64,000 nucleotides of DNA from contig NZ_JAFLQZ010000003.1 in assembly GCF_017313265.1 (NCBI RefSeq), positions 124,001 through 188,000 on the forward strand. The letters run 5' to 3'. Positions within the stretch are counted from its first letter, which is position 1. Every line of letters begins with the position of its first letter. The stretch comes from Hymenobacter telluris (GTDB lineage Bacteria > Bacteroidota > Bacteroidia > Cytophagales > Hymenobacteraceae). The position numbers were made by a program, and so were the translations under genes. The notes under the pieces are model-generated. The model did not search any database. It saw only the letters and a program-made list of their open reading frames with translations, and was not told the origin of the DNA. Positions 1 to 35,379 of this stretch are shown piece by piece.

Positions 1-20
1 CCCGCCAGTGCCGCAGGCAC

Positions 21-962: not shown

Positions 963-1000
963 GGGGAATTTCGGAGTGGAATTTAGCCGCAAGGTAGCGC

Positions 1001-2346: not shown

Positions 2347-2350
2347 CCGT

Positions 2351-3295: not shown

Positions 3296-3315
3296 ATTGG
3301 TTATTGCTTGATGCG

Positions 3316-3420
3316 TAGTTGGTGCGTTGTGCCTAGTGCGTTGTGCCTAGTGCTTAGGCCGTTCTATTACTGATGAACAGAACAGCCCAAGCACAAAGCA
3401 CTACCAACTAAGCACTAACC
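3316..3420. repeat. Heptameric mirrored repeat element 1
   Basis: Fifteen consecutive 7-bp units can be laid out here. The left half repeats TGCGTTG and TGCCTAG (each twice, in alternation); the right half has complementary-sense units such as ACAAAGC, ACTACCA, ACTAAGC and ACTAACC. The outer arms (TAGTTGG at 3316, complementary to ACCAACT near 3403) make an imperfect inverted repeat. It fills the gap between the UXS start and the ugd stop and runs into the last codons of ugd. Related elements are at 9474, 10937 and 23344. Confidence 0.75.
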
Positions 3421-4757: not shown

Positions 4758-4801
4758 AGAAGAGCGTAAAAAGTGGAGAGAATATGATTAAGGGCGTGGG
4801 A

Positions 4802-6718: not shown

Positions 6719-6839
6719 AAGGCGGGTAAAAGTACGAAGGAAGAAGACTTGTTCGGTAAAAATGTAGCAACCGCGCCTCGCAACCAAAGCCAGGTCAGTT
6801 TAGTACACTGTTTAGATTTCCACTCTTTAGCAACTGCTC

Positions 6840-7343
6840 ATGAATCTTCAGGACAATATAGATCTGCAAAAACAGTTTGAAGCGGCCGTGTCGCGCGTAG
6901 ACAGCCTGCCCGGCGACAAAGCGGCGGCGCACATGAACGAGCTGTATGGCCTCTACAAGCAAGCCACCGAAGGCGACCATGATGCCAAGCGCGACGAAGT
7001 AGGCGACGATACGCCCGACAATCCCAACGGCCCAAAAGGTATGTCGCAGGCGCAATGGGACTCCTGGAGCAAGTTTAAGGGTACCGACCAGGATGAAGCG
7101 CGCCGCCAATATGTGCAAAAGGTAACAGAATTGGCAGGCCCGGTAGGTGAGAAAACCACCGTTATTACCGGCAACGGCCAGCCCGCCACCGGCTCACAGG
7201 TGAACCCGCCCACGGAAGAAAACAGCACCACGGCGCCCCAGCCTGGTACCGGCCCTGGTATTTCGCAGGGCGGCCTGCAAGGCGACATTACAGCTGGCGC
7301 CCCCTATGGCGGTGAAGACCACCTGAAAGACGAGCAGAAGTAG
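6840..7343 (+). CDS. Acyl-CoA-binding protein with hydrophilic tail
   Basis: Residues 1-95 match the four-helix acyl-CoA-binding protein (ACBP) fold: LYGLYKQATEGD near 35-46 and WDSWSKFKGTDQDEARRQYV near 73-92 contain the conserved aromatic, lysine and tyrosine residues that bind the CoA adenine and phosphate. Family members bind long-chain acyl-CoA in the cytosol. The remaining 70 residues are Pro/Gly/Thr/Asn-rich, without predicted fold, and are unusual for the roughly 85-residue family. No signal peptide. Transcribed alone and divergently from the amidotransferase gene. Confidence 0.88.
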   Translation: MNLQDNIDLQKQFEAAVSRVDSLPGDKAAAHMNELYGLYKQATEGDHDAKRDEVGDDTPDNPNGPKGMSQAQWDSWSKFKGTDQDEARRQYVQKVTELAGPVGEKTTVITGNGQPATGSQVNPPTEENSTTAPQPGTGPGISQGGLQGDITAGAPYGGEDHLKDEQK

Positions 7344-7481
7344 CTGTTATCTTTTCGTTATGCCGGCCCGCTCCTTACTTCAAGGGGCGGGTCGGTTGGC
7401 GTTTCAGGGGTTGGGGAGTGGCGCGGCTAGTTACCGTTGCACTGAATAGAGCTAGTGGATTTTGGCTATTTTGGGCCAGCC

Positions 7482-9467
7482 ATGACTCAATTTCCTTTCT
7501 CTGCCCAGCCGAAGACCCTGTTTTATTCGGCTTGTATAGCGGCAAGTCTCTTATCGGGCTGTGCTTCTTCCAATGCGCCCCAAACGCCGACGGCAACAGC
7601 CGCAGTTAATCAGTTCGATGATGCCAGGCACCGCCTGATTGCCACAGCGCAGGATGAGCGCAATACCACGGCGCTGCTGCCTTACCTCACGCACCCGGAA
7701 GCCCGCTACCGGCAGGCGGCAGCATTGGCGTTGGCCTCGGTGCAGGATAAAACGGCGACATTGGGGTTGCAGCCTCTGCTGAACGATGCCGACCCTGCCG
7801 TGCAACGAGCCGCCGCCTACGCCCTCGGGCAAACCGGCGACAGTTCAGCAGTGGTAGCTCTTGCAGCCCGTGTTGCGGCAACGCCAACTAGCGGACAACG
7901 CTATTTTTATGAGGCACTTGGGCGTTGCGCAACCCTTACTTCCCTGCGGCAATTAGTACGAGCAGGTGCCAGTTCTGCCGATACGGCTGCGCTGGCGGGG
8001 CAGGCTTGGGGGTTGTTGCGGGCCGGTATTCGGGGGGTAACCTCGGAAGCAGCAGTCAGCCGCGCGGTTGCGCTGCTGGATCAGCGTAACCCGCTGGCTG
8101 CCCGGCGCGGGGCGGCTTTCACGCTGGCTCGCACACCGCGCCTCGACCTCACGCTCTACCAAGCTGCCCTCACCACCGCTACCACCGACCCCGATGCCAT
8201 AACGCGGGCGGCGGCTACTACGGCCTTGGGCAAAGTGAAAAACCCCGCCATTGCGCCCGCGCTCGTAGCACTAGCGCGGCGCGACCCAGATTACCGGGTG
8301 CGAGTAAGTGCTCTGCGGGCCATGAATGCTACTATGTATGGGCCAGTGAAAGAAGCAGCCTGGGAAGCCACCACCGACCCTAGCGCCCAGGTAGCCCTTA
8401 CGGCTGCCGAATTCTTTCTGGCTCATGCCAGCGGCGAACAGGGCATTCTGTTTCTGGAAAAAGCCAATAAGCTCAGCAACTGGCGGGTACGGGCCACGTT
8501 GCTGGCCGCTGCCCTCAAGGTAGGCGGTACCGAGCGGGGCGCTATCCGAAACGCCATTGAGCAGCGCTATACTGCCGCCTCTGACCCGTACGAGAAAGGC
8601 TATTTATTGAAAGCCTTAAGCGAAGACCCAGCCGCATATGAGTTTGTGCAGAAAGCTACTTTTGCCGCTGGTCAGCCGTTGGTGGTCGGGTCTTACGGCA
8701 TAGAAGCTTTGGTTGCTATTCGCCGCCTGCCCGATTTCCCGGTTGCGCAGCACGCAGCATTTGCCCTCACTATGCGCCGGGCTATGGCCAGCGGCGACGT
8801 GACCCTTATGAGCACGGCCGCCGAAGCCTTGCGCGACCCGAAGCTGGACCTGCGGCGCTTACTACCCGACCTCAGCTTTATTACCACGGCCCGCGACAAG
8901 CTGGTTCTCCCCCGCGACCTGGAAGCCTGGCAGGCCCTGCAACAAACGCTCGATTATCTGAACAACAAGCCGGCCACACCTACGCCGGTTGCCAAGGCTG
9001 CCAGCCACCCTATCAACTGGGCGGTGGTAGGCACTATTCCGGCGGGTCAGCGGGTGCTACTTACTACCACCAAGGGCGATATCACCATGCAATTGCACGT
9101 TAATGATGCGCCTGGCTCGGTAGCTAGTTTCGTGGAATTGGTGCGGCAGGGCTTTTATAACAACAAAACATTTCACCGGGTGGTCCCCAATTTCGTGGCA
9201 CAGGGCGGCTGCCCACGGGGCGACGGCTCTGGCAGCACCGATTATAACCTGCGGTCCGAATTTGGGGATTTGCGTTACGGCGAGGGCGCCGTGGGGCTGG
9301 CTTCGGCCGGCAAAGACACCGAAAGCTGTCAGTGGTTTATAACCCACGCTCCCACTCCGCACTTAGATGGTCGCTACACCATTTTCGCGCAGGTAATACA
9401 AGGCATGAACGTTGCACACCGGCTTGATATCGGCGACAAAATAGTGCGGGTAGAGCTAGTCCGTTAA
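7482..9467 (+). CDS. Lipoprotein with HEAT repeats and C-terminal cyclophilin-type peptidyl-prolyl isomerase
   Basis: About 661 residues from the ATG at 7482; a GTG at 7455 would add nine residues. A short signal ends in LLSGC, giving a lipidated Cys near residue 26. Residues about 45-440 are alanine-rich helical HEAT-like repeats (for example LQPLLNDADPAVQRAAAYAL). The C-terminal 150 residues are a cyclophilin domain with FHRVVPNFVAQGGCPRGDG, the QWFITHAPTPHLDGRYTIF core and a terminal strand. Such proteins isomerise X-Pro bonds; here the activity would be tethered to the cell envelope, with the HEAT array as a client- or partner-binding surface (inference). Convergent with the cupin gene across a heptameric repeat. 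Confidence 0.88.
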   Translation: MTQFPFSAQPKTLFYSACIAASLLSGCASSNAPQTPTATAAVNQFDDARHRLIATAQDERNTTALLPYLTHPEARYRQAAALALASVQDKTATLGLQPLLNDADPAVQRAAAYALGQTGDSSAVVALAARVAATPTSGQRYFYEALGRCATLTSLRQLVRAGASSADTAALAGQAWGLLRAGIRGVTSEAAVSRAVALLDQRNPLAARRGAAFTLARTPRLDLTLYQAALTTATTDPDAITRAAATTALGKVKNPAIAPALVALARRDPDYRVRVSALRAMNATMYGPVKEAAWEATTDPSAQVALTAAEFFLAHASGEQGILFLEKANKLSNWRVRATLLAAALKVGGTERGAIRNAIEQRYTAASDPYEKGYLLKALSEDPAAYEFVQKATFAAGQPLVVGSYGIEALVAIRRLPDFPVAQHAAFALTMRRAMASGDVTLMSTAAEALRDPKLDLRRLLPDLSFITTARDKLVLPRDLEAWQALQQTLDYLNNKPATPTPVAKAASHPINWAVVGTIPAGQRVLLTTTKGDITMQLHVNDAPGSVASFVELVRQGFYNNKTFHRVVPNFVAQGGCPRGDGSGSTDYNLRSEFGDLRYGEGAVGLASAGKDTESCQWFITHAPTPHLDGRYTIFAQVIQGMNVAHRLDIGDKIVRVELVR

Positions 9468-9473
9468 AACAAA

Positions 9474-9550
9474 TTGCCAGTTGTGGGTTGTGAGTTGCCA
9501 GTTCGTTCCAGAAACCAGCAACTCACAATCCATAACTGGCAACTCACACC
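9474..9550. repeat. Heptameric mirrored repeat element 2
   Basis: Exactly eleven 7-bp units fill the gap between two convergent stop codons. Left half: TTGCCAG, TTGTGGG, TTGTGAG, TTGCCAG; right half: CAGCAAC, TCACAAT, CCATAAC, TGGCAAC, TCACACC. The halves form an imperfect inverted repeat of about 28 bp per arm around a short centre. It may also serve as a bidirectional terminator, although no T-tract is present. Confidence 0.8.
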
Positions 9551-9892
9551 TTACTTATCGTCGCGGCCGTGGGCTTGGGCGGGTGGCGTGGTAGCTTCCA
9601 CTGCCGAGAAAGTTTCCAGAATCTTGTAAGTGTGCGACGCGCCTTTGGGCACCACCCACGAGTTACCGGGTTCCAGCACTACCACTTGGCCTTCGGAGTG
9701 CAGTTCTGCCCGGCCTTTCAATACATACCCAACCGTTTCGTAGGCGCGGCTGGTAGGTTCTTTGGGCTCACTGGGTTCTTCGTTTTCCCAGAGGCGCATG
9801 GACACGTGCACGCCGGAAGCCAGGTATTTTTCCCCGTCGTCGCCTTTTGGTGAATGAGCGGAGTCGATTTTTGTGATGGTGGTATCAGCCAT
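9551..9892 (-). CDS. Cupin-domain protein
   Basis: 113-residue single-domain cupin of unknown substrate. A conserved beta-barrel is visible with VGYVLKGRAELHSEGQVVVL (cupin motif 1 region, residues about 54-73) and PGNSWVVPKGASHTYKI (motif 2 region). Only one clear metal-binding histidine is seen in motif 2 and motif 1 lacks the usual HxH, so metal binding is uncertain. Cytosolic. Transcribed alone, with cysE starting about 200 bp away on the other strand; no functional link is evident. Confidence 0.75.
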   Translation of the reverse strand: MADTTITKIDSAHSPKGDDGEKYLASGVHVSMRLWENEEPSEPKEPTSRAYETVGYVLKGRAELHSEGQVVVLEPGNSWVVPKGASHTYKILETFSAVEATTPPAQAHGRDDK

Positions 9893-10096
9893 GGAAAGGT
9901 AGCGTAGAGAAATGAAGGAAGAAGATGTAGCGTCTTCACGGAAGACTTTCTTTCCTAACGCGTACCAGGCAGTTGCGGTTACTGATTCCCACTGCCAGAA
10001 CTTTCCGCGGCATAGATAGTTGAACTATACTGTGGCTATTTCTGGCCGCTACTATTTCTGCCCGCTGGCTGTATTGCTGGTCTTGCCTGATTACGC

Positions 10097-10936
10097 ATGT
10101 CTTTTTCTGCCGATACTCCTTTTGTGCGCACGTTGGTGCGGGCACATCAGCAAGCGGCCACGCCACTACCCGGTCCGGCTTTCTGCCAGCTAGCCGAGCA
10201 GTTGCTGGAGCTGCTGTTTCCTGAGCGTGCCCACAGGCCCATTGTTCGTCCCGATGCCATAGCCGCTACCCTCAGCCAGCTCCAAACCGATTTGGCAGCC
10301 TTGCTCATGCGCGTACCCATGCCCGACGCGCCAGCGGCTGTAGCAACTCACTTTATGGCTCGGCTACCCGCTCTGCGGGAGATGTTGCTGTATGATGCCG
10401 CCGCTATTCTGGCCGCCGACCCCGCCGCGCAGGGTACCGAGGAAGTTATTGCCACTTACCCCGGCTTCTACGCAACGGCGATGCACCGGCTGGCCCACGC
10501 GCTGCACCAGTTGCACGTGCCGCTAGTGCCGCGCCTTATCAGCGAATATGCGCATCAGCTTACCGGCATTGATATTCACCCCGGCGCCAGAATTGGTCCT
10601 TCGTTTTGTATCGACCACGGCACTGGTATTGTGGTGGGTGAAACCACCGTCATTGGGGCCCATGTGAAAATATTCCAGGGCGTAACCCTGGGTGCCCTTA
10701 GCGTAAACAAGGATTTGCAGGGCATCAAGCGCCACCCTACCATTGAGGACCATGTGGTGCTATATGCCGGAGCTACTATTTTGGGGGGCAATACGGTAGT
10801 AGGCAGCCACAGCATCATTGGCGGCAATGTATGGCTCACGGAGAGTGTTCCTTCGCACTCCCGTGTGTACCATCGGGCCCAAATTCACGTCACCCGTACC
10901 GAAGACCCCACTGAGGGCCTCACCTTTTCCATTTGA
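10097..10936 (+). CDS. cysE: Serine O-acetyltransferase
   Basis: Forms O-acetylserine from serine and acetyl-CoA, the first step of cysteine synthesis. 279 residues with an alpha-helical N-terminal half and a left-handed beta-helix of hexapeptide repeats from about residue 155: DIHPGARIG, then IDHGTGIVVGETTVIG containing the catalytic Asp/His pair, then QGVTLGALS and ATILGGNTVVGS. It resembles the longer EpsC/SrpH-type enzymes more than the enterobacterial CysE. The next gene, cysteine synthase, uses its product; the 151-bp gap between them contains a degenerate repeat, so co-transcription is likely but not assured. Confidence 0.93.
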   Translation: MSFSADTPFVRTLVRAHQQAATPLPGPAFCQLAEQLLELLFPERAHRPIVRPDAIAATLSQLQTDLAALLMRVPMPDAPAAVATHFMARLPALREMLLYDAAAILAADPAAQGTEEVIATYPGFYATAMHRLAHALHQLHVPLVPRLISEYAHQLTGIDIHPGARIGPSFCIDHGTGIVVGETTVIGAHVKIFQGVTLGALSVNKDLQGIKRHPTIEDHVVLYAGATILGGNTVVGSHSIIGGNVWLTESVPSHSRVYHRAQIHVTRTEDPTEGLTFSI

Positions 10937-11076
10937 TTGTTGGGAGCTGATTGCTTATTGTTAGCTATTCATTGTGACTGGGTTCCTCTGAACACTCAGT
11001 TTGCTGATTACTCAGCACAGCAAGTAGCTCATACCAACTAATCTCACTTAGCATCAACCACTAGCTACCACTCAAA
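10937..11076. repeat. Degenerate heptameric repeat element 3 (tentative)
   Basis: The cysE-cysK gap can be read as degenerate 7-bp units: TTGTTGG, GAGCTGA, TTGCTTA, TTGTTAG on the left and CAACTAA, TCTCACT, TAGCATC, AACCACT, AGCTACC on the right. The sense changes from GTT-type to AAC-type units in the middle, as in elements 1, 2 and 4, but conservation is much weaker. Confidence 0.45.
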
Positions 11077-11087
11077 CACGCCAAGTA

Positions 11088-12008
11088 ATGAAAGCCCATT
11101 CCATCCTAGACACCATCGGCAACACGCCGCTATTGCGCCTCAACAAACTTTTCGCCCAGCGGCCCGACGTAGAGGTTTGGGTGAAGCTAGAACGCGCCAA
11201 CCCCGGCGGCAGCATCAAAGACCGGATTGCCTTGAGCATGATCGAGCAAGCCGAGCAAGACGGCATCCTGAACTCTGATAGCCTGATTGTGGAACCAACT
11301 TCCGGCAATACCGGCGTCGGTTTGGCTATGGTAGCCGCCGTGAAAGGCTATAAGTTGACGCTGGTTATGCCCGAATCCATGTCGATTGAGCGGCGGCGCC
11401 TGATGGCTGCTTACGGTGCCAACCTGGAGCTTACCCCCCGCGAGAAAGGCATGAAAGGCGCCATCGAGAAGGCCCACGAAATCGTGCAGAGCACGCCCGG
11501 CGCCTGGATGCCCATGCAGTTTGAGAACCCCGCCAACATCAAAGTACACGCCGAAACCACCGCTCAGGAAATTCTGCGCGACGCTCCCGAAGGCTTCGAT
11601 TATCACATCACTGGCGTAGGTACCGGGGGCCACATCACCGGCGTAACGGAGGTGCTGAAGCCACTTTTTCCTAACATGAAAACCTTCGCCGTAGAGCCTG
11701 AACTGTCGCCGGTAATCAGCGGTGGCGCGCCTGGCCCGCACCCTATTCAGGGCATCGGCGCGGGTTTCGTGCCCGGCAACCTGCACCGCGAAATTCTAGA
11801 CGGTACCATCCAAATTTCGCAGCAAGACGCTTTCGACATGGCCCGCCGCGCCGCCCGCGAAGAAGGCATTTTCATGGGCGTATCATCCGGTGCCTCATTG
11901 GCCGCCGTAGCTCAGAAGCTCGATGAAATGCCCCAAGGCAGCCGCGTCCTCACCTTCTGCTACGACACCGGCGAACGGTACTTGTCGGTAGAAGGTCTGT
12001 TTGTGTAA
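11088..12008 (+). CDS. cysK: Cysteine synthase (O-acetylserine sulfhydrylase)
   Basis: PLP enzyme, 306 residues, joining sulfide to O-acetylserine to give cysteine. The PLP-binding lysine is in [14 protein letters not shown] near residue 44; [12 protein letters not shown] is the substrate loop; [10 protein letters not shown] near 178 binds the PLP phosphate; SSGAS near 265 contacts the pyridine ring nitrogen. The short length and absence of a C-terminal extension fit CysK/CysM rather than cystathionine beta-synthase. It follows serine acetyltransferase. A 21-bp perfect stem-loop 27 bp after the stop probably ends the transcript. Confidence 0.93.
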
Positions 12009-12035
12009 CGCACGGTTTCAACTCTCAAGCTTTTA

Positions 12036-12079
12036 GCCACAGCAACGGCTTGCCAGATGGCAAGCCGTTGCTGTGGCTT
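12036..12079 (+). terminator. Stem-loop after cysteine synthase
   Basis: A perfect 21-bp stem (arms 12036-12056 and 12059-12079) with a 2-base centre begins 27 bp after the stop. It lacks a strong T-tract, so it may work as a 3'-end stabiliser as well as a terminator. Confidence 0.7.
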
Positions 12080-12135
12080 GTCAGTTAGTAAAGCCAGTTG
12101 TATGAAGCAAAACTGGCAAAACGCAATGCATAAAA

Positions 12136-12162
12136 AAAGCCCAACCTATTCGGTTGGGCTTT
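12136..12162 (-). terminator. Terminator of tRNA-Ala
   Basis: An 11-bp stem (arms 12136-12146 and 12152-12162) with a 5-base loop. On the minus strand it is followed by a run of seven T, which suits intrinsic termination just after the tRNA. Confidence 0.85.
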
Positions 12163-12168
12163 CAAACG

Positions 12169-12242
<74 letters not shown>

Positions 12243-12280
12243 GTTTTCGTTTCTCATTCGCCGCTTGCGTTTGAGTGGGA

Positions 12281-12288
12281 CAAAAGTA
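12281..12288 (-). promoter_or_regulatory. -7 box for tRNA-Ala
   Basis: TACTTTTG on the minus strand, matching the Bacteroidota -7 consensus TAnnTTTG. A CTTG at 12308-12311 on the same strand is 19 bp upstream and resembles the -33 TTTG element. Confidence 0.65.
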
Positions 12289-12356
12289 CGGTAGGTTTTG
12301 GGATCTACAAGACCAAGCGCAAAAAAACACTGAAAAAATTAGTCTACGCACTAAAA

Positions 12357-12390
12357 AAAAGTGGGTTGGCACTAGTGCCAACCCACTTTT
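12357..12390 (-). terminator. Palindromic terminator of the first TonB receptor gene
   Basis: A fully palindromic 34-bp sequence centred on ACTAGT, with a T-run on the minus strand, lies 20 bp beyond the receptor stop codon. Confidence 0.85.
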
Positions 12391-12410
12391 CAAGCAGCTA
12401 ACCTACTGGC

Positions 12411-15400
12411 TTAGTTGAAGATGTAGCGCAAGCCAATCTGTCCTTGCCAGCGGGAACCCAAACCACCTGTATCGTTACGGAAGGTCTTGGTTAGAGGCGT
12501 ACCCGCCGTTACTACGCCATCCGCAGCGTTACGGGTTGGATTCACGAAGTTCGGGAAGGTATAAACAGGCTGGCCAGTGGCATTGTAGCCAGCGAAAGTC
12601 AGCGGGTTGGTCCGGTTCGGCGTCTGCAACACGCCCCAATCTTTATTGATGAGGTTACCGATGTTGAAGATATCAATGCTCAGCTGAAGGGCGTTCCGAT
12701 TCTCACCGAGGTTGGTGAAGATATCTTGCAGCAAACGGGCATCCAGGCGCTGCTGCCACGGCCGCACGGCACCGTTACGCTCGGCATACTCACCGCGGTG
12801 CTTGCTTAGGTATTTGTCCTGGTTGATGTAGTTTTCCAGGTCAGCAGACTGTTGCGCGGCAGTATAGCGGGCGTATTCCACTGCCGTCGTTGATCCTGCC
12901 GGCGTGTAGGTATAGATGATGTCCCGCAGGTTAATTTCACTTGGGTTGCGCGGGATGTACATCAGGTCGTTCGACGTCTGGTTGTCGCCGTTCATGTCAC
13001 CGGAGTACACGTAAGAGAAGCGGCTAACCGGGGCAGCCTCGTAGAACAGCGAAACCGTAGTACCAAGGTGGCCAAGATACTCCTTGCGGAAAGAGCCCGA
13101 AGCAATGACGCGGTGCTGCTGCAGGAACTGCGAGTAGCTGAGGGCTTCAGCATTCGGGTCGCCGGAGATAGAACGGTCGCGCCAGATCGACTGGGCAATC
13201 GAGCCACCGTCGTTCACGGAACGCGAATTGGAATAGGTGTAAGCGGCACTCAGGTAGAAACCGCTGGAAAAAGACTTCTGCAACTGTGCCGTAGCCGCAT
13301 ACGAATAGCCTTTCTTGGTGTTCTTCATCAGAATGGCGTCGCTGATGTTGGGACGAGCAGCGGTATTGCCGCCCTGAGCCGCAGGTACCGAACCGTAAAT
13401 CTGGTAGTTGCGGGTTGCCACGCGCAAATCAGCATTCGGAGCGGCCTGAGCCGCACCCAGCGTGTAGAAGATAGGGCGGGTATCGGCACCCTGCGACCGG
13501 GCAGAAGCTGCCGATTCGCTGCCGGGTAGGTTCACGTTCTGGTGATAAACGGCGTTGATGTCTTTCGTGTAGAAAGCCTCCAGCGTGGCAATAACGCCAC
13601 CAGGCAGCACTTGGTCGACGGCCAGGTTGGTGCGCCACACCTGCGGGAACTTGAAGTCGCTGGCCGTTACGGCCAGGTTGTAGGAGGTATTAGCCGCGGC
13701 GTTCTGCGGACGATATGCATCCACGTCGGGGCTGAACGGATAGATAGAAGCATTGACGTTCGTAACGCCGTTGGTAGTCGTTGGGACAGAACCTGAAGTA
13801 CTGAACGAGCCGAATTGCAGGCCGTTGTTGCTGGCTTGGTTGGACAGCCACACGAACGGAATACGACCAGTGAAGATGCCCGAACCACCGCGTACCTGCG
13901 TCTGCTTGTCGTCGTTCACATCCCAGTTGAAACCAACGCGGGGCGAAAACAACACCGATTTCTTAGGCACCCCACCCGTATTCAGTTTTACGCCGTCGCG
14001 GAAGGTTAAGGCCGCCGCATTTTCGTTCTGCAACAAGTCCGACGTCAGGAAAGGCAAATCAGCCCGCAGGCCATAAATCACTTTCAGGTTGTTGAGAGCC
14101 GACCATTCATCCTGTGCATACAGGCCCAACTGTGCGGCCTTCAATTCAACCACTGCCGATTGGCCAGGCGTGGTATACTGTAGATTGTAGCGGGCTGGAC
14201 CCGGACGAGTACCGGTCAGAGGTGACACGCTCACGTTAGCACGGTCGTACGCAAAGCCGGCCGAGGCATAGAAATCCTCCAAGGAGTTGAAGGAGTAGTT
14301 GCCGTAGTAGTTAGGCGCGAAACCGTTCTGGAACTTGTAGAATTCGTTGTAGGTACCAACCGTTACGTTGTGCTTGCCTAAATACGCCGTGAAGTTGTCG
14401 CCAATCTGGTATACGTCCGAGTTCAGGATGTTGAAAGCCGTGAACGGCTCGTAACCGAACGAGGTGAGGGAGTTGGTAGCGTTGATACCATTGAGTTGGA
14501 CAGTTGTAGTGCTGCGGCCAACCGAGGTTCCGATATCAACCAGCGGGAACGGGTTGCCGCCCCGGCTTTCGCGGAAGTCGCGGAAAGCGGAATAGCCAGC
14601 GGTTAGGTTGTTGGAGAACTTGCCACCGCCTAGTGTGCTGTTCAGTTCAGCAATAAACGAGTTCAGGTTGTTGTTGATAACGTAGTACGACGACGAGAAC
14701 GGCAAGCCGAACTGCGACTGAGAGCGTTGGCCGGCAATAGCGCCCGAGGTGCTCGGTGGAATATCAGCGTACGATTTCAGGTAGTTGTACTTGATGTTGA
14801 AGCGGTTGTTCTGGTTGATGTTCCAGTCAACCTTTATCGTAGCCTTATCACTGTTAGAGCGCAGCTTGAAGTTTTCGTACGACCCTGGGTTGTAGCCATA
14901 CTGCGTTTGCAGGAAATTGCTCAGAAAATCTAGTTCACGAGCTGAAGCTTGCGACGTTTGCGAGCCGGCGGGTGGCGTGGTGGTTTCGCGGTTGGCCGTG
15001 AAGTTGCCGGTCGGCGGGTCGGTGCGGCGCTCCTGCTCGGCATTCACGAAGAAGAACAGCTTGTCCTTGATAATTGGCCCGCCGAAACGGAAACCATAGT
15101 TCTTCAGCTTGAAGTTTGGATAGTCCTGCTTGAAGTCGCCAACCTTGCTGCCTACCAGGTCTTGGTCGCGGTAGAAACCGTACACCGAACCTGAGAATTT
15201 GTTGGTACCGCTCCGCGTCACTACGTTGATGCCAGCACCGGTAAACGAGCCCTGCCGCACGTCGAAGGGTGCAATGCTCACCTGAATCTGGTCGATGGCG
15301 TCGAGGGAGATAGGCTGGGCGCTGGCCTGGCCACCCACGGTCGACGACAAACCGAAAGCGTTGTTGAAGATGGCACCGTCAACGGTGATGTTGTTGAAAC

Positions 15401-15935
15401 CGCTGTTGCGGCCGCCGAAGCTCTGGCCGTTGGCCTGCGGCGTGAGGCGGGTGAAATCGTTGAGCGAACGGTTGAGCGTGGGCAAACGCTCAATTTGTTC
15501 GCGCTGCACCGTGGTAGCCGCCCCTGTACGGCCCGCATTAATTACCGGATCCTGCCGGCCCGAAACCGTTACGCCCGCCAGTTGCGTACTGGCTTCGCTT
15601 AGGTTGATGTCGAGGCGGAGGTTCTGGCCCAGCGTTAGGAAAATACCTTCGCGAGTAGCCTCCTGATAACCTACAAACGTGATACGCACTGAGTAAGGCC
15701 CCCCCACCCGCATGTTCTGGATGTTGAAGCGGCCCTCGGAGTTGGTAGGTGCAACGTACTGCGTGTTAGTAGGTGTATGAATAGCAATGATGGTTGCCCC
15801 CGGTAGGCCGGCACCGTCCTTGTCAGTGATGACCCCATTCATGGCCGAGGTAGTGGTGCCTTGTGCCCACCCCTGCTGGACGGAAAGAACCGCCAAAAGC
15901 AGGTATAGAAGTTGACGGTAAAAACTGTTTTTCAT
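12411..15935 (-). CDS. Oar-like TonB-dependent outer-membrane receptor (paralogue A)
   Basis: 1174 residues. A signal peptide ends near QQGWAQ; residues about 25-120 form a carboxypeptidase-regulatory-like beta-sandwich (MNGVITDKDGAGLPGATI); then a TonB plug (about 130-260, with PTLNRSLNDFTRLTPQANG) and a large beta-barrel ending in an aromatic (GLRYIFN). This is the Oar/OmpA-related architecture common in Bacteroidota, used for TonB-dependent uptake or export across the outer membrane; the substrate is unknown. I chose ATG 15935, which places the hydrophobic signal at the N-terminus; a -7 box lies 27 bp upstream. No SusD partner is adjacent. The N-terminal 250 residues are nearly identical in pattern to the receptor at 17017-20256. 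Confidence 0.93.
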   Translation of the reverse strand: MKNSFYRQLLYLLLAVLSVQQGWAQGTTTSAMNGVITDKDGAGLPGATIIAIHTPTNTQYVAPTNSEGRFNIQNMRVGGPYSVRITFVGYQEATREGIFLTLGQNLRLDINLSEASTQLAGVTVSGRQDPVINAGRTGAATTVQREQIERLPTLNRSLNDFTRLTPQANGQSFGGRNSGFNNITVDGAIFNNAFGLSSTVGGQASAQPISLDAIDQIQVSIAPFDVRQGSFTGAGINVVTRSGTNKFSGSVYGFYRDQDLVGSKVGDFKQDYPNFKLKNYGFRFGGPIIKDKLFFFVNAEQERRTDPPTGNFTANRETTTPPAGSQTSQASARELDFLSNFLQTQYGYNPGSYENFKLRSNSDKATIKVDWNINQNNRFNIKYNYLKSYADIPPSTSGAIAGQRSQSQFGLPFSSSYYVINNNLNSFIAELNSTLGGGKFSNNLTAGYSAFRDFRESRGGNPFPLVDIGTSVGRSTTTVQLNGINATNSLTSFGYEPFTAFNILNSDVYQIGDNFTAYLGKHNVTVGTYNEFYKFQNGFAPNYYGNYSFNSLEDFYASAGFAYDRANVSVSPLTGTRPGPARYNLQYTTPGQSAVVELKAAQLGLYAQDEWSALNNLKVIYGLRADLPFLTSDLLQNENAAALTFRDGVKLNTGGVPKKSVLFSPRVGFNWDVNDDKQTQVRGGSGIFTGRIPFVWLSNQASNNGLQFGSFSTSGSVPTTTNGVTNVNASIYPFSPDVDAYRPQNAAANTSYNLAVTASDFKFPQVWRTNLAVDQVLPGGVIATLEAFYTKDINAVYHQNVNLPGSESAASARSQGADTRPIFYTLGAAQAAPNADLRVATRNYQIYGSVPAAQGGNTAARPNISDAILMKNTKKGYSYAATAQLQKSFSSGFYLSAAYTYSNSRSVNDGGSIAQSIWRDRSISGDPNAEALSYSQFLQQHRVIASGSFRKEYLGHLGTTVSLFYEAAPVSRFSYVYSGDMNGDNQTSNDLMYIPRNPSEINLRDIIYTYTPAGSTTAVEYARYTAAQQSADLENYINQDKYLSKHRGEYAERNGAVRPWQQRLDARLLQDIFTNLGENRNALQLSIDIFNIGNLINKDWGVLQTPNRTNPLTFAGYNATGQPVYTFPNFVNPTRNAADGVVTAGTPLTKTFRNDTGGLGSRWQGQIGLRYIFN

Positions 15936-15961
15936 GTGAAGTAGTTGATGAAACCCAACTA

Positions 15962-15969
15962 CAAAAGTA
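15962..15969 (-). promoter_or_regulatory. -7 box for TonB receptor A
   Basis: TACTTTTG on the minus strand, matching TAnnTTTG, 26 bp before the start codon. No clear -33 TTTG was found. Confidence 0.6.
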
Positions 15970-16114
15970 ATAGGCATGCACACTATTCTGATGTTATTAA
16001 AACATTATTAAAAAATAATTTACACCTTGATGTTATACCATAAATACTTTGCAATCATTTACATATAACATTTTACTACTAAACTGGTACTATGGCTGCA
16101 GTCTAAATAGGGCA

Positions 16115-16146
16115 CAAAAAAGCGGGTGGAGAATTTCCACCCGCTT
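16115..16146 (-). terminator. Terminator of the receptor B-DUF4397 operon
   Basis: An 11-bp stem (arms 16120-16130 and 16136-16146, 5-base loop) followed on the minus strand by a T-rich stretch, 28 bp after the DUF4397 gene stop. Confidence 0.85.
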
Positions 16147-16173
16147 CTAAATTCAGCTTAAACTTCAGCTAGT

Positions 16174-16983
16174 TTAGTTATGCTGCACCACTGAAATTCC
16201 TAGGGAAGTAGCAGTAGGAGTAGCACTAGCCGCGACACCGCGTACGTACAGTGTATAGATCTTGCCAGCAGTGAATGTCAAAGACTGTGCAGTTCCGGCA
16301 AGTGGAGTAGTGGCAACACTACGCACATCCAGATTATAAGTACCCGCTGCTACTTCTGTGAAGTTAGCATAGGTGGTCACCGGAGCAGTAGTGCCACTGT
16401 TCAAGGCTCGGAAACCACGTAGCGGTGCTGCCGGGAAGAACGAGGTAGCACCGTTGAAGATACCGTACGTACCCGACGGGGCCAGATTCACGAAACGAAC
16501 CTTAGCATTACCTGCTGCAGGTGCGGCTAGGTTATCTGTCAATACCAATGAGCGGATGCCGCCTTGATCTGTTGTACCGATTAAAGCACGGTTGGTAGGG
16601 TCCGTCAGAAACACCGTATAGTTAGTACCGCCCAAGAAAGAAGTGCGCGACACTAATGGACGAGCTGCTGAACCAGCAGGGGCATTACTTGGAATATTGG
16701 TTGGTTCATTGAAGATGAACAACCGCAATCCTGCAGCAATTGGAGTAATAGCTGAAGCTCCCAGATACGGCAGTGCGGTACCAAATGAGGCATTGTCTAC
16801 TGTCACAGCTGTACCTGTTGCACCGGGCGCTGCATTCACCACCAATACCCGAGCTTGACCAACCGTAGATTCGGTTACCGGGGTAGGAGTGGCGTATTCA
16901 GGCTCGTCGCAACCAACCAGCACCGAAGCTACCGAAGCAGTCAGCGTGAGTTTGGTCAGAAACGAAGAAAAAGAGAATTTCAT
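16174..16983 (-). CDS. DUF4397-domain lipoprotein
   Basis: 269 residues. Signal peptide ends in ASVLVGC, giving a lipidated Cys at residue 25. The mature part begins with GQARVLVVNAAPGATGTAVT and contains a second similar strand set (KVRFVNLAPSGTYGIF), the pattern of DUF4397, a beta-rich extracellular domain of unknown role. It is 33 bp downstream of TonB receptor B on the same strand and shares its terminator, so it may be a surface partner of that receptor (inference). Confidence 0.8.
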   Translation of the reverse strand: MKFSFSSFLTKLTLTASVASVLVGCDEPEYATPTPVTESTVGQARVLVVNAAPGATGTAVTVDNASFGTALPYLGASAITPIAAGLRLFIFNEPTNIPSNAPAGSAARPLVSRTSFLGGTNYTVFLTDPTNRALIGTTDQGGIRSLVLTDNLAAPAAGNAKVRFVNLAPSGTYGIFNGATSFFPAAPLRGFRALNSGTTAPVTTYANFTEVAAGTYNLDVRSVATTPLAGTAQSLTFTAGKIYTLYVRGVAASATPTATSLGISVVQHN

Positions 16984-17016
16984 AAGTTGAAGCGTTTATC
17001 GAAGCCAGCTGACTGA

Positions 17017-20000
17017 TTAAAACAGGTAACGAACACCAAACTGGGCCTGCCAGCGCGAAGCCAACTGGCTGATCTGATAGGCTACATTTGGCGTGGTAGC
17101 AGTACCCGTACCGTAGCTGAAAGTTGGGCGGCCGGTGGTGGTATTCTCCAGCCCCTGGTAACGAAGCAAACCATAGTTACCGTTTGCTACCGAGTAATCA
17201 CGACCCCAATTTTTATTCAGCATGTTACCGAAGTTGATAACATCAACCGACAACTGAATAGTGTGATTTTTCTCACCAATCTTCGTGTAGATATCCTGTA
17301 GCAGACGCACGTCAATACGGTGCTGCCAAGGCGTACGGGCACCGTTACGGGCGGCGTATTCGCCACGATGCTCTTTCAGATAGTCGTCATTCTCGATGAA
17401 TGCATTCAGCTCATTCCAGATTTGATCAACAGTCCGACGGTCGTTTACGCCATCCGTTACCAGTACAATCTCGCTCTGGTTGCGGGGGATATAAATCAGA
17501 TCGTTCGAGCTACCTGAAGGGTTGCCACCGTCGCTGTTGATATCGTTACCGTAGTAGGTATACGAGAAGGGAGAACCCGACTGACCGTTGTAAAAGGCCG
17601 AAACGGTGGTAGCAAAGTGATTGGCGTATTCTTTACGATACGAGAGCGAGCCAATTACCCGGTGGCGTAGATCAAAGCTAGAATACGACAGCGGCAAGTT
17701 GTTAGGATTGCCTGCGTGCGGGTTGAATTCCCAGATAGATACGGCTGTTGAGCTAGTGCCCGAGTACAAGTCGCGCGATTGACCATACGTATAGGCGGCC
17801 GTAGCGAACAGGTCGCTATTAACCTGCTTCTTTAGTTCACCCGTGATGCTATACTGATGGCCTTTGCTGGTGTTAGTCAGCAAAATCACGTTGTTGAAGT
17901 CACGGTTATTGCGGTAACGAGCCGTACCAGCAGGATATACCGGACGACCATCGCCTTGCAGAACACCCGTTGGGTTTACCAAGTTGATATCTTGCGGTAG
18001 TACGTCATTCAGCGTCTTAGAGTAGATACCTTCTAGAGTAGCAACAATACCAGCCGGTAGACGGTAGTCAACAGCGAGGTTGGTACGCAGCAATTGCGGG
18101 TTGCGGAAGTCTTTGTCGGTTACAGCGATACTACCCTTAGCCGCGGTAGCTGGAGTAGCAGCAATCCGGTCGCGGAGGGTAGCATAGTTGTTGGTTAACT
18201 CTAGGCCCGTGCGCGTGGTGCTGTTGTTGGAATCAAACGTAGCAAAGTCGCGGCCAGTGTTGCCGTATTGGTTGGAAATCCACACATAAGCTGGGCGGCC
18301 GGTGAAAATACCAGCTCCACCACGTACCTGGAAGCTTTGATCTTTACGCACATCCCAGTTGAAACCAATCCGGGGCGAGAACTGAATCCGTGACTTAGGC
18401 AGGCGGTCAGTTTTTACGTCATAAGCAGGACCTTGAGCAGTGGCAACCGCGAAAGTTGAATCGACGCGAGAGTTGTACGACGGCGTATCAAAATACACGG
18501 GTAGGTCAAGGCGCAAGCCAGTAGTCAAGCGGAAATTATCCGTGATGTTATATTCATCCTGAGCATAAACGCCAAACTGAGCAGCACCGAACTTAGCTGT
18601 TGGGTTGCCACCGGGCAGTGCAAAGTTCTGGCGGTAACGGAAGTTACCCGTAAGATCATTATTTAGGAAAGCAGTAATGCTCGGAAAGTCATAACGACCT
18701 TGCGTGCTCTGCACAAACAGGTTATCGAAACGGAATATCTCGTTATTTGTACCCAAGGTCAGCACGTGCTTACCAGCAAACACGTTGAAGTTGTCGGTAA
18801 TCTCGAGAATGTCCTGATCAAGGCGGTTAGCCACTGAGCTAAACTCTGAACCAGCAGAAATAGTACCGTTGCCAGCCGTAATGGTAATAGATGGGAACAG
18901 ATCACCTACAGTGGAGCGGCTGTCTCGGATAGTAGAATAGCCTACCAGCAAGTTGTTGGCGTAACGGTTGCCGAAGCGGCTCTTCAGTTCAAGTACCGTA
19001 GAATTGGTTTTGCTTAGGAACTGGTACCCGTTGTTGCCGAAGCGGAAGTTGGTTAGGCTACGGGAGATGTTATCATCTGAAGCGTCTACGAAGTTGTGAC
19101 GCAGCGTAAGCTGATGATTCTGATTGATGTTCCAGTCTAGGCGAGCAAACGCCTTGTTGCTGCGGGTTTCAGCGTTAATTTCACCGAAAGTACCTGCGTC
19201 ATAGCCATAACTACGGAGCTTGTCAGAAATTTCTTGAAGCTGAGCAGTGTTGACAAAAGTCAGTAAGTCAGAGCTTGTATTACCAGTGATTTGCTCTAGG
19301 CTACCCGTACGGAACAATAGCGGCGCGGTACGACGAGTGATTTCTCCGTTAACGAAGAAAAAGAGTTTGTCTTTAATGATTGGACCACCTAAACGGAAGC
19401 CTGTCTGGTAATCGTTGAATTTAGCGAGTTTAGTGCGGTTACCAGAAGCGTCGGGAGTCGGGCTTTTACCAGCTGTATTTTGGTTACGACCGAAAGCGAA
19501 TGCCGAACCAGAAAATTCGTTGGTACCGGAGCGGGTTACAGCATTGATACCTCCACCGCTGAAGCGGCCCTGGCGTACGTCATAAGGAGCAATTACTACC
19601 TGGAATTCCTGGATGGCATCCAGCGAAATAGGTTGGGTACCAGCTTGTCCACCTGGCGTGCCGGAGTTACCCAAACCAAACAAATCGTTATTGGAAGCAC
19701 CGTCAATCTGTACGTTATTGAAACGGCCGTTACGACCCGATAGCGAGTTGCCGTTAGCCTGAGGCGTCAGGCGCGTGAAATCCTGGAAGCTCCGTGAGAT
19801 GGTTGGGAGACGCTCGATTTGCTCACGACGCACCGTGGTAGCTGCACCCGTACGGCCTGCGTTGATTACGGGGTCTTGGGTAGCCGTTACGGTTACGCCT
19901 TCCAACTGAGTGGTAGTTTCGCTCAGGTTCAGGTCTAAGCGCTGGTTCTGACCCAAGCTTAGGAAAATACCTTCCCGAGTGATGTCCTGATAACCAACAA

Positions 20001-22762: not shown

Positions 22763-23344
22763 ATGGCCAAACGGGGTAAGATCAACCAGCGCCAACGGAT
22801 TCTGGAAGAAGCCGCTAAACTGTTCAAGTCCAAAGGTTTTGCCGGCACTTCCATGCGCGACCTGGGCGGCGAAGTAGGCATGGAAGCGGCCAGCATCTAC
22901 AACCACGTCAAGTCCAAAGACGAGATTCTGGAAAGCATCTGCTTTTACATATCCGACACCTACATTTCGCAGCTTGCCGAAGTAGAGCAGACGGCCACTC
23001 CTTACAGGGAAAAGATTGAAACCCTGATCCGGCAGCACATCCGGTTGATGCTGGAAGAAGGCGCAGCCGTATCAGTGGCCAACAACGACTGGAAATACCT
23101 GACCGGCGACAAGCTCACGGCCTTCAAAGACGCCCGCAAACGCTACGAGCACGGCTTCGCGGCCCTCATTGAGCAGGGCATTGCGGCCGGCGAGCTGCAA
23201 CCCGTCAACGTATCGGTGGCGCTGTTTACTATCCTGTCGGCGGTGCGCTGGGTGGAACTGTGGTACCGGCCGGGCCGGGGCGTTTCGGCCGACGAGCTGG
23301 AGCAAAACATCCTCACCATGCTCTTGAATGGCCTAGCAAAATGA
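22763..23344 (+). CDS. TetR/AcrR-family transcriptional regulator (PaaR-like by context)
   Basis: 193 residues. N-terminal helix-turn-helix at about 10-58: RILEEAAKLFKSKGFAGTSM, then RDLGGEVGMEAASIYNHVKS. The C-terminal ligand-binding helices are of the general TetR_C type. It is 105 bp upstream of a PaaE-like reductase gene on the same strand, and a palindromic operator overlaps its own promoter. In other bacteria TetR-family PaaR represses phenylacetate catabolism with phenylacetyl-CoA as inducer; assigning that role here is inference from the neighbour only. Confidence 0.85.
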   Translation: MAKRGKINQRQRILEEAAKLFKSKGFAGTSMRDLGGEVGMEAASIYNHVKSKDEILESICFYISDTYISQLAEVEQTATPYREKIETLIRQHIRLMLEEGAAVSVANNDWKYLTGDKLTAFKDARKRYEHGFAALIEQGIAAGELQPVNVSVALFTILSAVRWVELWYRPGRGVSADELEQNILTMLLNGLAK

Positions 23345-23446
23345 GTTGCCAGTTACCAGTTGTCGGTTGTGAGTTGCCAACTCATAGCCAGCCTAGCAAC
23401 TGGCCACTGGTAACCGGCAACTGATAACTCACAACTGGCAACTGAC
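23344..23446. repeat. Heptameric mirrored repeat element 4
   Basis: Left half: AGTTGCC, AGTTACC, AGTTGTC, GGTTGTG, AGTTGCC. Right half: AACTGGC, CACTGGT, AACCGGC, AACTGAT, AACTCAC, AACTGGC, AACTGAC. Units are strictly 7 bp with a 19-bp transition in the middle, and each half is the complement in sense of the other. It fills the gap between the TetR gene and the reductase gene, so the mRNA could form a long imperfect hairpin. Confidence 0.85.
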
Positions 23447-23449
23447 TAC

Positions 23450-24529
23450 ATGAGTCGTTTTCATACGTTAAAAATCAAGCGGATTCAGCGGGAAACGCCC
23501 GATTGCGTGACGCTGGTCCTGGACGTACCCGCCGAGCTGACCGACACGTTCCGGTTCACGCAGGGGCAGTACCTCACGTTCCGGCGCGAGCACAACGGCG
23601 AGGAACTGCGCCGCTCTTATTCTATATGTAGCAGCCCCCTGGACGGCGAGTGGCAGGTGGCCATCAAGAAGGTGCCGGAAGGCCGGTTTTCGTCGCTGGC
23701 GGTGGAAAATCTGCGGGTAGGCGACGAACTGGAGGTGATGCCGCCGGCCGGGCGCTTCTACACCGAGCTGCACCCCACCAACGCCAAGCACTACGTGGCC
23801 TTTGCGGCGGGCAGCGGCATTACGCCGGTGTTTTCCATCGTCAAGACCATTCTGCTAACCGAGCCCCACAGCCAAGTGACGCTGATTTATGGCAACCGGG
23901 GCCGCAATTCCATCATTTTCAAGGAAGCCATTGAGGCCCTGAAAAACAAGTTTCTGCGGCGGCTAAGCGTCTACCATATCCTGAGCCGGGAGCAAAACGA
24001 TACCGACTTGCTATTCGGCCGCATTGATGAAGTGAAAACCCGGCAGTTTCTGGACAAGCTGCTGCCCGCCAGCCAGATTGATGAGTGCTTTATCTGTGGG
24101 CCCGAGGAAATGATTCAGGGTGTGCGCGCTGCCCTCACTGCCGCCGGAGTACCCGCCGACCGAATTCACTTCGAGATGTTCACTTCGGCCGGCAGCCGCC
24201 AAGCTCAGACGGGCCCCGCCAAACCACACCCCAGCGGCACCGACGACAAGCACAGCCAGGTAACGGTGCAGCTCGATGGCAGCACGCGGGTACTGGAAAT
24301 GTCGTACTACGGTGATACTGTGCTGGATGCGTTGCTGGAAACCGGGGCCGATGCGCCGTACTCGTGCAAAAACGGCATGTGCAGCACCTGCCGGGCCCGC
24401 GTCACGCACGGCACCACGGAAATGGACGTAAACTACTCCCTCTCCGAGACTGAAGTGGCGAAAGGCTACATTCTCACTTGCCAGGCCCGCCCCACCTCGG
24501 AGCAGGTAACGGTAGATTTCGACCAGTAA
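23450..24529 (+). CDS. paaE: Ferredoxin/FAD oxidoreductase, PaaE-like (phenylacetyl-CoA epoxidase reductase subunit)
   Basis: 359 residues in the order FAD-binding barrel (RRSYSICSSPLDG near 50-62), NAD(P)-binding domain (AAGSGITPVFSIVKTIL near 120-136; CFICGPEEMIQGV near 215) and a C-terminal plant-type [2Fe-2S] ferredoxin with ligands Cys306, Cys311, Cys314 and Cys344. Order and length match PaaE, which passes electrons from NADPH to the PaaABCD epoxidase. No other paa gene is in the window, so a general ring-oxygenase reductase remains possible. It follows the TetR gene across a repeat element; the start ATG at 23450 is just past that repeat. Confidence 0.85.
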   Translation: MSRFHTLKIKRIQRETPDCVTLVLDVPAELTDTFRFTQGQYLTFRREHNGEELRRSYSICSSPLDGEWQVAIKKVPEGRFSSLAVENLRVGDELEVMPPAGRFYTELHPTNAKHYVAFAAGSGITPVFSIVKTILLTEPHSQVTLIYGNRGRNSIIFKEAIEALKNKFLRRLSVYHILSREQNDTDLLFGRIDEVKTRQFLDKLLPASQIDECFICGPEEMIQGVRAALTAAGVPADRIHFEMFTSAGSRQAQTGPAKPHPSGTDDKHSQVTVQLDGSTRVLEMSYYGDTVLDALLETGADAPYSCKNGMCSTCRARVTHGTTEMDVNYSLSETEVAKGYILTCQARPTSEQVTVDFDQ

Positions 24530-31920: not shown

Positions 31921-32483
31921 TAGCTAATGCAGGAACGCACCCACTGCTAGAAGCCTTGCTTGCTGGTAGTACAGGAGTTCTATGCTGTATATTAAAAAAG
32001 GAGGCCGAGCTTAGCTCGGCCTCCTTTTTTAATATGGCTAGACTTGGTGTAGCTCTGCTTGTCGATTTTAACTACAAATTAAAGCAACAGGGCCACGACA
32101 TGCATTATCCTGTCCTGCTCCTGCTGTACTGCATTCCGGAACCAGCCAGTTGCAAGGTTATTGGTGGGTGTACATAGGTAATGACAAAGCACTTGTAATG
32201 GTAATGGCACTATCAATTAATTATAAATATTCCAATAACACATTTAAAGCAATTGTATAGCAACAGGTCAGAAAACCTGTATATATCATACCGAATATAT
32301 AAAATTATAAAATACTCAATTACTAAGCTGTGCAATGGATTGCATTCTTTTTATTAATGATAAATCATATAATTTATTACACAATATTTTATATAATTTG
32401 ATAATGCTGATTGCTTCCGCAAGAAGGTCAGTGTCCTTTCTGACGAGGAGTTAAGCGTCATTACACCTTAGTTCACCACTATT
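31921..32483. other. AT-rich gap between the two T9SS lectin-like genes
   Basis: Apart from the terminator at 31994-32030 no gene is supported. The stretch from about 32190 to 32410 is strongly AT-rich compared with the GC-rich genes on both sides, and probably holds the promoter region of the second gene; I could not assign a clear -7 box. Confidence 0.6.
31994..32030 (+). terminator. Strong terminator after T9SS lectin-like gene 1
   Basis: A 17-bp palindromic stem around loop TTA, with an A6 run before it and a T6 run after it, so it can work in both directions. Confidence 0.92.
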
Positions 32484-35311: not shown

Positions 35312-35379
35312 AATAATATCAAGTGGCAACAAAAAGGCGGCTTAATAAGGCCGCCTTTTTGTTGCCACTTGATATTATT
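35312..35379. terminator. 30-bp perfect inverted repeat, bidirectional terminator
   Basis: Arms 35312-35341 and 35350-35379 are perfect complements with an 8-base loop. The inner part is a normal terminator (A5 GGCGGC ... GCCGCC T5) for both convergent genes; the outer 19 bp extend it far beyond the usual length and include the stop codon of the minus-strand gene. Confidence 0.88.

Follow-up and report, generated by a model that had tools for sequence, protein, structure and literature searches.

The window, i.e., the whole 64,000-nucleotide stretch of Hymenobacter telluris DNA analyzed here, comes from a genome of 6.02 Mb in 47 contigs (G000). Between a TetR-family regulator gene, which ends at 23344, and a FAD/NAD/2Fe-2S oxidoreductase gene, which starts at 23450, the whole gap is occupied by a single element (23344..23446) of mirrored short repeats, so that the gap consists of stop codon, hairpin and start codon with no other content. 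Of the other elements, one (9474..9550) separates the convergent genes of a cyclophilin/HEAT-repeat protein and a cupin, and one (3316..3407) lies between two minus-strand genes of the UDP-glucose/GDP-mannose dehydrogenase and NAD-dependent epimerase families. The features are the following.

23344..23446, no strand assigned: mirrored heptamer element with AACTGRC/AACTCAC words, recognized by its arms, fold and lag 7.
23344..23379, plus strand: left arm of this element, made of GTT-type units; its first base doubles as the final base of the preceding stop codon.
23408..23443, plus strand: right arm of this element, made of AAC-type units; it ends 6 nt short of the next start codon.
9474..9550, no strand assigned: mirrored heptamer element with AACTGGC/AACTCAC words and arms at 9474-9503 and 9513-9542.
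3316..3407, no strand assigned: mirrored heptamer element of the AAGCACT word family, with an inner hairpin at 3340-3368/3376-3404.
10937..11087, no strand assigned: weak, decayed copy whose own fold is not significant; hairpins are present in 16 of 30 orthologous gaps, own included.

The original prediction had described arrays with GTT-type units on the left and AAC-type units on the right, and these are confirmed at 3316-3407, 9474-9542 and 23344-23446 by lag 7, by folding, and by their arms and words. In 70-base windows, lag 7 has the highest self-similarity score (0.571) among lags 3-30, and scores above 0.5 at this lag are confined to 3275-3378, 9466-9559 and 23340-23478. An inverted-arm search gives 75% complementarity for the arms of the 23344 element and 87% for those of the 9474 element. 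When folded as single-stranded DNA, the stretches at 23344, 9474 and 3316 have z values of -5.4, -8.2 and -3.5 and out-fold all 200 shuffles. For the weaker copy claimed at 10937, z is -1.9 and 7 of the 200 shuffles fold as well; therefore it is not significant alone. Among the orthologous gaps (30, own included), 16 hold a hairpin at z > 3, and period 8 is seen in 11 and period 7 in 4. Allowing at most one mismatch, AACTNNCAACTNNC is matched 18 times in the window against 3.5 expected, the highest of 100 shuffles being 10. By eye, the units are contiguous and lack the spacer-and-repeat layout of a CRISPR, and they are not one fixed REP sequence. At gathering score the sole Rfam match in the window is a tRNA at 12169-12242, and an Rfam family was thus rejected as the identity of the elements. 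The window also holds two perfect long palindromes of the non-periodic kind, at 35312-35379 and 31989-32035, with arms of 30 and 23 bp.

The elements belong to a class found throughout the genome and the genus. With at most one mismatch, AACTNNCAACTNNCAAC has 233 matches in the whole genome, against 24 for the reversed control. In the intergenic DNA of a 448-kb part of the same genome, the self-match at lags 7, 14 and 21 is 0.283, 0.274 and 0.273, above the 0.260, 0.255 and 0.254 of shuffled sequence, and the period-7 excess expected in the remaining intergenic DNA is therefore present. Lag 3 is raised too in this DNA (0.287), perhaps from missed coding DNA; coding sequence is raised at triplet lags only. 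Exact matches of AACTNNCAACTNNCAAC occur in 103 of 120 Hymenobacter genomes in very uneven counts, and the reversed pattern is far commoner than the forward one in G009, G013, G043 and G097. We also surveyed 1186 gaps in 2.0 Mb of sequence from seven Hymenobacter genomes, among which G022 and G069 are a close pair. Among the 497 hairpin gaps, z exceeds 2.5 at lag 7 in 87 and at lag 8 in 39 (other lags, 9-24); in the 689 non-hairpin gaps the counts are 30 and 17 (other lags, 11-30). Thus, in these seven genomes, periods 7 and 8 are enriched in hairpin-forming gaps only. The genome matches and this survey bear out the prediction of a genome-wide class of intergenic mirrored elements with a short period.

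The unit is not always a heptamer. Lag 7 stands out in the window, and octamer words are present beside the heptamers. In one genome we distinguish the heptamer families AACTGRC, AACTCAT, AAGCACT, AATACTC, AACCAAA, ACGAAAA, AATTAAG and AGCTAAC together with the octamers CACCATTT, TGGATGAA and AATTGTTG. Throughout this work, words and cores were grouped by eye, genes came from a simple ORF script with approximate start codons, and each species is represented by one genome. Words differ among loci, which sets the elements apart from an ordinary REP of fixed sequence. The further claim of a private word set for each locus does not hold, since word families are common to many loci. Contigs C12, C13, C28 and C29 of G006 carry long AACTCCC arrays, a dialect of that genome, and the array of C28 begins within 5 bases of the contig end.

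Orientation was surveyed in six genomes and 1063 gaps (G069 was left out, here and in later counts, as a near-duplicate of G022). The periodic hairpins number 100, with 64 of GT-left polarity, 13 of AC-left polarity and 23 that are neutral; the corresponding numbers are 42, 158 and 117 for 317 non-periodic hairpins, and 3, 13 and 18 for 34 hairpins with another period. The elements thus fill a minority of gaps, roughly 6 to 9% of those scored (64 to 100 of 1063). The position, wobble and unit-order statistics below are restricted to the 64 GT-left elements, 26 of which show this polarity in the window's own genome. Their GT content of 0.59-0.74 on the left and 0.29-0.35 on the right follows by construction from selection by polarity. 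Gaps with no hairpin show no asymmetry (GT 0.48-0.53 at both edges), and we therefore rejected the idea that gap edges are polar in general. With the AACTGNC word, 31 of 120 Hymenobacter genomes have the GT-left pattern and none has the reversed, AAC-left one; the window's own genome is not among the 31 and matches neither pattern. Integron attC sites have RYYYAAC on the left and GTTRRRY on the right. Identity with attC was rejected, the AAC-left AACTGNC form being present in 0 of 120 genomes. In a convergent gap of G068, G096 and G039 (L227, L229 and L233) we observed a TTTAACA-word element with AC-left polarity and a CGTTC-type core in all three.

The elements are also anchored at stop codons. 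The 48 co-directional GT-left elements start at a median of 1.5 nt from the stop codon, and 37 of them at 5 nt or less, while 175 control hairpins have a stop-side median of 19 nt with 15% within 5 nt. At their far end the co-directional elements stop a median of 24.5 nt before the next predicted start. In convergent gaps, 9 of 11 elements come within 13 nt of both sides. Divergent gaps hold a GT-left element in 5 of 194 cases, against 59 of 869 for the rest (p = 0.028).

The gaps orthologous to three of the window elements were collected from 30 genomes each, own included, and those of 60 bp or more were scored for hairpins. In 24 of 29, 20 of 29 and 16 of 30 of them a hairpin exceeds z 3, and in 5 of 29, 9 of 29 and 14 of 30 none does, with period 7 in 24, 20 and 4 and period 8 in 1, 1 and 11. 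The words at one gap differ completely among species (AACTGGC, AAGCACT, CCAAAAA, AGCTAAC, octamers). Thus, most orthologous gaps retain a hairpin while its words get replaced, and the prediction that unit length is kept as the words drift is seen across these gaps. In G050, the nearest relative by identity, the 23344 gap measures 106 bp, against 105 bp in the window, and holds other decayed words. By eye, a repeat element of G000 stands opposite a terminator-like hairpin of G050 at 67640 and opposite REP-like palindromes at 80730 and 316726; at 47765 a heptamer element stands opposite an octamer element. A further gap, around a G001 element (30 genomes), likewise shows word turnover and has REP-like palindromes between repeat arms. 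Such palindromes, of the TCATNCTGAGCG type, were seen by eye between the repeat arms of L215, L217, L219, L220, L225 and L090, and the outer private arm of L220 has its mirror image on the far side of the REP, save for a 7-nt difference between the arms.

The close pair G022/G069 has few elements: in its 143 gap pairs, two are common, one of them a plain palindrome outside the word families, and two are in one genome only. In 115 gap pairs of G001/G088, 12 are periodic in both genomes, 21 in one and 82 in none. The alignable periodic pairs of these two species are few and contain four indels, none of length 7; clean 7-nt indels were thus not seen between them.

While the words turn over, the two arms of an element tend to change together. 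At the three loci, the complementarity of an element's own left and right arms is 17.9, 13.9 and 12.0, against 10.3, 9.3 and 7.8 for arms of other species; at each it exceeds all 2000 permutations, and the own arm is the best in its row in 14 of 29, 5 of 29 and 11 of 30 cases. The order of units is mirrored as well. In 61 usable elements of the 64, the refolded score is 25.0, against 19.6 with the right-arm units permuted; the real order is higher in 49 of 61 and lies above the 95th percentile in 25 of 61. Refolding makes this the fair version of the test, which without it favours the real order by construction. Private unit variants mirrored in both arms within single species were recognized by eye in three species. 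At 219702, one G001/G088 pair shows four substitutions that recur as mirror images in the two arms and a fifth confined to the right arm, and at 130940 one pair has changes in one arm only. The arms of the 23344 element have words in common but no unit order (0.75 in order, 0.75 permuted).

Paired RNA would tolerate G-U more readily than A-C mismatches on the transcribed strand, and the 48 co-directional elements show no G-U excess (69:69). The ratios at the three loci, whose sets are not independent, are 28:38, 36:24 and 23:29. As a positive control, short-loop terminator-like hairpins give 68:27 (p = 3e-5). There is thus no sign of selection on RNA pairing in the elements, and co-variation of the arms together with the lack of a G-U excess points to copying between DNA arms. 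In practice, a functional RNA should not be taken as proven when hairpins of this kind covary.

We suggest, with moderate confidence, that these are spacer hairpins of the STRR type, made of heptamers and also octamers, that evolve by copying at the DNA level and not by selection on RNA structure. A replicating strand would fold on itself, and one arm would be recopied from the other by template switching, i.e., quasipalindrome correction, while slippage by one unit would multiply or delete stem units of 7 or 8 nt. Coding sequence would limit growth at one end and regulatory sequence at the opposite end, which may be why the elements stop at stop codons; they would then occupy the non-regulatory part of a gene gap, from the stop codon onward. 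Word families might be seeded from locus to locus through dispersal of short hairpins, most clearly in the octamer family. In the case of RNA genes, template switching has been argued to create hairpin stems and to repair them (PMC8794818). Replication slippage within a hairpin, one of the two causes first proposed, is the best fit to the arm-to-arm co-variation, to in-order copying beyond the refolded control and to the missing RNA-wobble signature. Counted against copying are the arms of the 23344 element, which are not in order, the single-arm changes at 130940, the lack of 7-nt indels and the orthologous gaps without a hairpin. Template switching and slippage also leave the GT-left polarity of AACTGNC and the presence of AACTGAC across phyla unexplained.

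Alternatively, the elements could act in RNA, as hairpins after the stop codon that stabilize mRNA, attenuate transcription or couple translation of two genes; in the coupling variant, the terminating ribosome would open the left arm and free the AC-rich right arm before the next start. GT-left elements do follow stop codons directly, hairpins are kept at most orthologous gaps, and the 23344 gap has just the required content of stop, hairpin and start. Transcript stability or translation coupling has been proposed for cyanobacterial STRR (PMC2670836), and the wobble test has some power on long-loop hairpins, the non-periodic ones having a mild G-U excess (97:70, p = 0.04). We nevertheless regard a role in RNA as unlikely, because the elements have an even ratio where terminator-like hairpins have a skewed one, and 11 of the 64 elements lie in convergent gaps, which have no downstream start. 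A scan of window positions 1-20000 for terminator-like hairpins, covering three of the four gaps with 23344 outside, gave 33 matches against 22.8 in shuffles, and only one of them, at 3345-3359, is within those three gaps. An intrinsic terminator would have a short-loop stem with a T-run behind it and tolerate G-U on the transcribed strand; this identity was rejected on the mostly long loops, the GT-left arms and the even G-U:A-C ratio.

The word families could also be miniature mobile elements, REP/REPIN- or MITE-like, that a transposase moved and whose arms later degraded into repeats. An octamer core, GAGTTTGAYGTTC...GCGC...GAACRTCAAACTC, was read by eye in 14 of 19 printed loci from three species (5 of 7 in G000, 7 of 7 in G001, 2 of 5 in G050). 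Six G000 elements served to build the search model and are therefore bound to match it. Since the core is common to loci of three species, the hairpins do disperse. Loop motifs speak for mobility too: CCGTTC/GAACGG is in the loops of 10 of 82 periodic hairpins against 1.6 expected and GTTCAAC/GTTGAAC is enriched as well, both being top words among all 5- to 7-mers examined, and CGTTC/GAACG is in the loops of 11 of 48 Hymenobacter AACTGAC loci against 2.7 expected. Across all word families, what we see are these enriched loop motifs and not a conserved core. AACTGAC hairpins in several phyla are a further point for mobility.

Against mobility, near-identical copies were not found: among the matches listed, the 23344 element reaches at best 76% identity to another place in its genome, and the octamer family is closer and still variable. 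In 12 gap pairs in which the element was scored in G000 alone, there is no added length, 7 of the G000 gaps being shorter than their G050 counterparts, 4 longer and 1 equal. In other phyla, no loop motif is clearly enriched in AACTGAC loops (CGTTC 1 of 36 against 1.9 expected, CCGTT 4 of 36 against 1.3 expected). A Y1 transposase was rejected as the mover, because the flanks of the only one matched in G000 hold another palindrome family. We consider mobile origin an improbable account of the word families.

The sole match to a Y1 (RAYT-like, PF01797) transposase in G000 is L365 (C42:132289-132633), with GCACCGCTACGCGGC palindromes on both sides by eye; L365 and these palindromes are likely a REP-transposase unit. 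The GTTCAAC/GTTGAAC motif is found in the loops of 19 of 131 non-periodic long-loop hairpins against 0.8 expected, a count in which copies of one family were not separated. It lies on differing REP-like stems, e.g., at G000 C33:359481 and 66289 and G001 C3:62335 and 204843, and a shared mover or target motif is possible.

A dedicated and widespread process at the DNA level could write short GT-rich words onto both sides of a gap, 5' to 3' inward, and so overwrite hairpin spacers in place, time and again, with the current word family of the genome; the presence of AACTGAC across phyla would in that case stem from an enzyme in common or from horizontal movement of a template, and not from convergence. 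The word occurs in Acidobacteriota, Planctomycetota, Chloroflexota, Desulfobacterales and Bacteroidota. Exact mirrored AACTGAC pairs form 84 stretches in about 85,000 species genomes, 48 in Hymenobacter and 36 in others by title. The latter comprise Acidobacteriota (10), Desulfobacterales/Desulfococcaceae (7), Planctomycetota (6), Lewinella (5), other Bacteroidota (3), Ardenticatenia (2), and Chlorobiota, Acetobacteraceae and Sulfuricella (1 each); none of the 84 titles names a cyanobacterium. At 19 of the 36, one or both sides of the pattern are flanked, at a distance of 0-25 nt, by a stop codon predicted from crude ORFs. Among 395 evenly drawn Bacteroidota, four of them Hymenobacter, a looser pattern has one match, in a Hymenobacter. 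The polarity of the cross-phylum loci is 84:0, a ratio biased by their choice through the GT-left pattern. Viral contigs contain 6 forward and 2 reversed stretches, the reversed pattern being slightly rotated; with so few stretches phage carriage looks rare, and polarity in viral contigs is not strict. We hold such a dedicated process to be decidedly unlikely.

A protein that reads one unit per 7 nt of DNA or RNA, the other cause first proposed, is highly improbable: cold-shock and other RNA-binding proteins have been put forward as heptamer readers in Beggiatoaceae (PMC4679880), but in Hymenobacter a single genome carries unrelated heptamer words alongside octamers, and at an orthologous gap one such word takes the place of another between species. 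Chance low complexity or an assembly artefact has practically no weight and was rejected on the shuffle controls, the genome-wide counts and the finding that 103 of 120 Hymenobacter assemblies contain matches.

REP/REPIN palindromes occupy intergenic sites. They resemble the Hymenobacter elements in being dispersed palindrome families, and differ in that the Hymenobacter stems are arrays of drifting words with no adjacent transposase found. The REP palindromes tagged with GTAG or CGTC have a stem tagged by a tetranucleotide, and the GTAG types come with a tyrosine transposase (PMC3733652).

Among heptamer repeats, TAACTGA direct repeats are described from Beggiatoaceae, cyanobacteria and five Bacteroidetes; in Beggiatoaceae they mostly lie just before start codons, in AC-forward sense (PMC4679880). 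Two close Cyanothece strains differ by repeat indels mostly in 7-nt steps, and the same source describes no evident transfer mechanism. This word, read circularly, is one base from AACTGAC and is likewise intergenic. Unlike the Hymenobacter arrays, the TAACTGA repeats are direct, with one inverted repeat in 170 sets, and mostly of one word, and anchoring at stop codons does not appear in the relevant passages of PMC4679880. The GGGAATC and GGGGA(C/T)T heptads of Xanthomonas and Nostoc are mostly intergenic, near stop codons and scarce between divergent ORFs, and related species mostly have them in the same gaps, where their length and sequence vary; Xcc has 70 convergent, i.e., mirrored, pairs and Nostoc few (PMC4692102). 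The Hymenobacter elements, in the set chosen as GT-left, share the G/T-rich coding strand right after the stop (37 of 48 co-directional ones within 5 nt) and the scarcity in divergent gaps (5 of 194, against 59 of 869). The heptads were studied as one word per organism and given a G-quadruplex interpretation, whereas the Hymenobacter words are of many kinds including 8-mers; by eye, AACTGRC, AAGCACT, AACCAAA and CACCATTT have no three-G run on either strand.

Our searches of open-licence literature, a small part of which named the genus, turned up no paper that describes these elements in Hymenobacter. Several bacteria are known to carry heptamer repeats, and the relevant passages of PMC4692102, PMC4679880, PMC2408588 and PMC2670836 leave their origin and function open. 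The Hymenobacter gaps replicate the pattern many times over at orthologous positions, so that comparison of close strains can test whether it arose by slippage and template switching, by mobility or through RNA function. Any theory will have to accommodate the strict polarity of AACTGNC, the anchoring at stop codons, co-variation without an RNA-wobble signature and one word across phyla.

The closest comparison is with STRR of cyanobacteria, which are usually 7-bp repeats that can fold into hairpins; one such repeat lies close to the 3' end of an upstream gene (PMC2670836). Likeness to STRR had been limited to unit length in the original prediction, which is wrong. Both are tandem 7-bp units in gene gaps with a capacity for hairpins, matching the lag-7 enrichment in Hymenobacter hairpin gaps. 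One word, AACTGAC, is also common to both the Hymenobacter arrays and csR1.1 of Nostoc PCC 7120 (as GTCAGTT), where ttgtcagttgtcagttgtca, with 44 copies, is a listed intergenic repeat, not called STRR there; the Nostoc 20-mer is scored "no hairpin" (PMC2408588). The Hymenobacter elements are set apart by mirrored arms, by octamer families and by many word families that swap at orthologous gaps. Thus, the Hymenobacter elements are a word-diverse, mirrored variant of the bacterial heptamer repeats of the STRR type.
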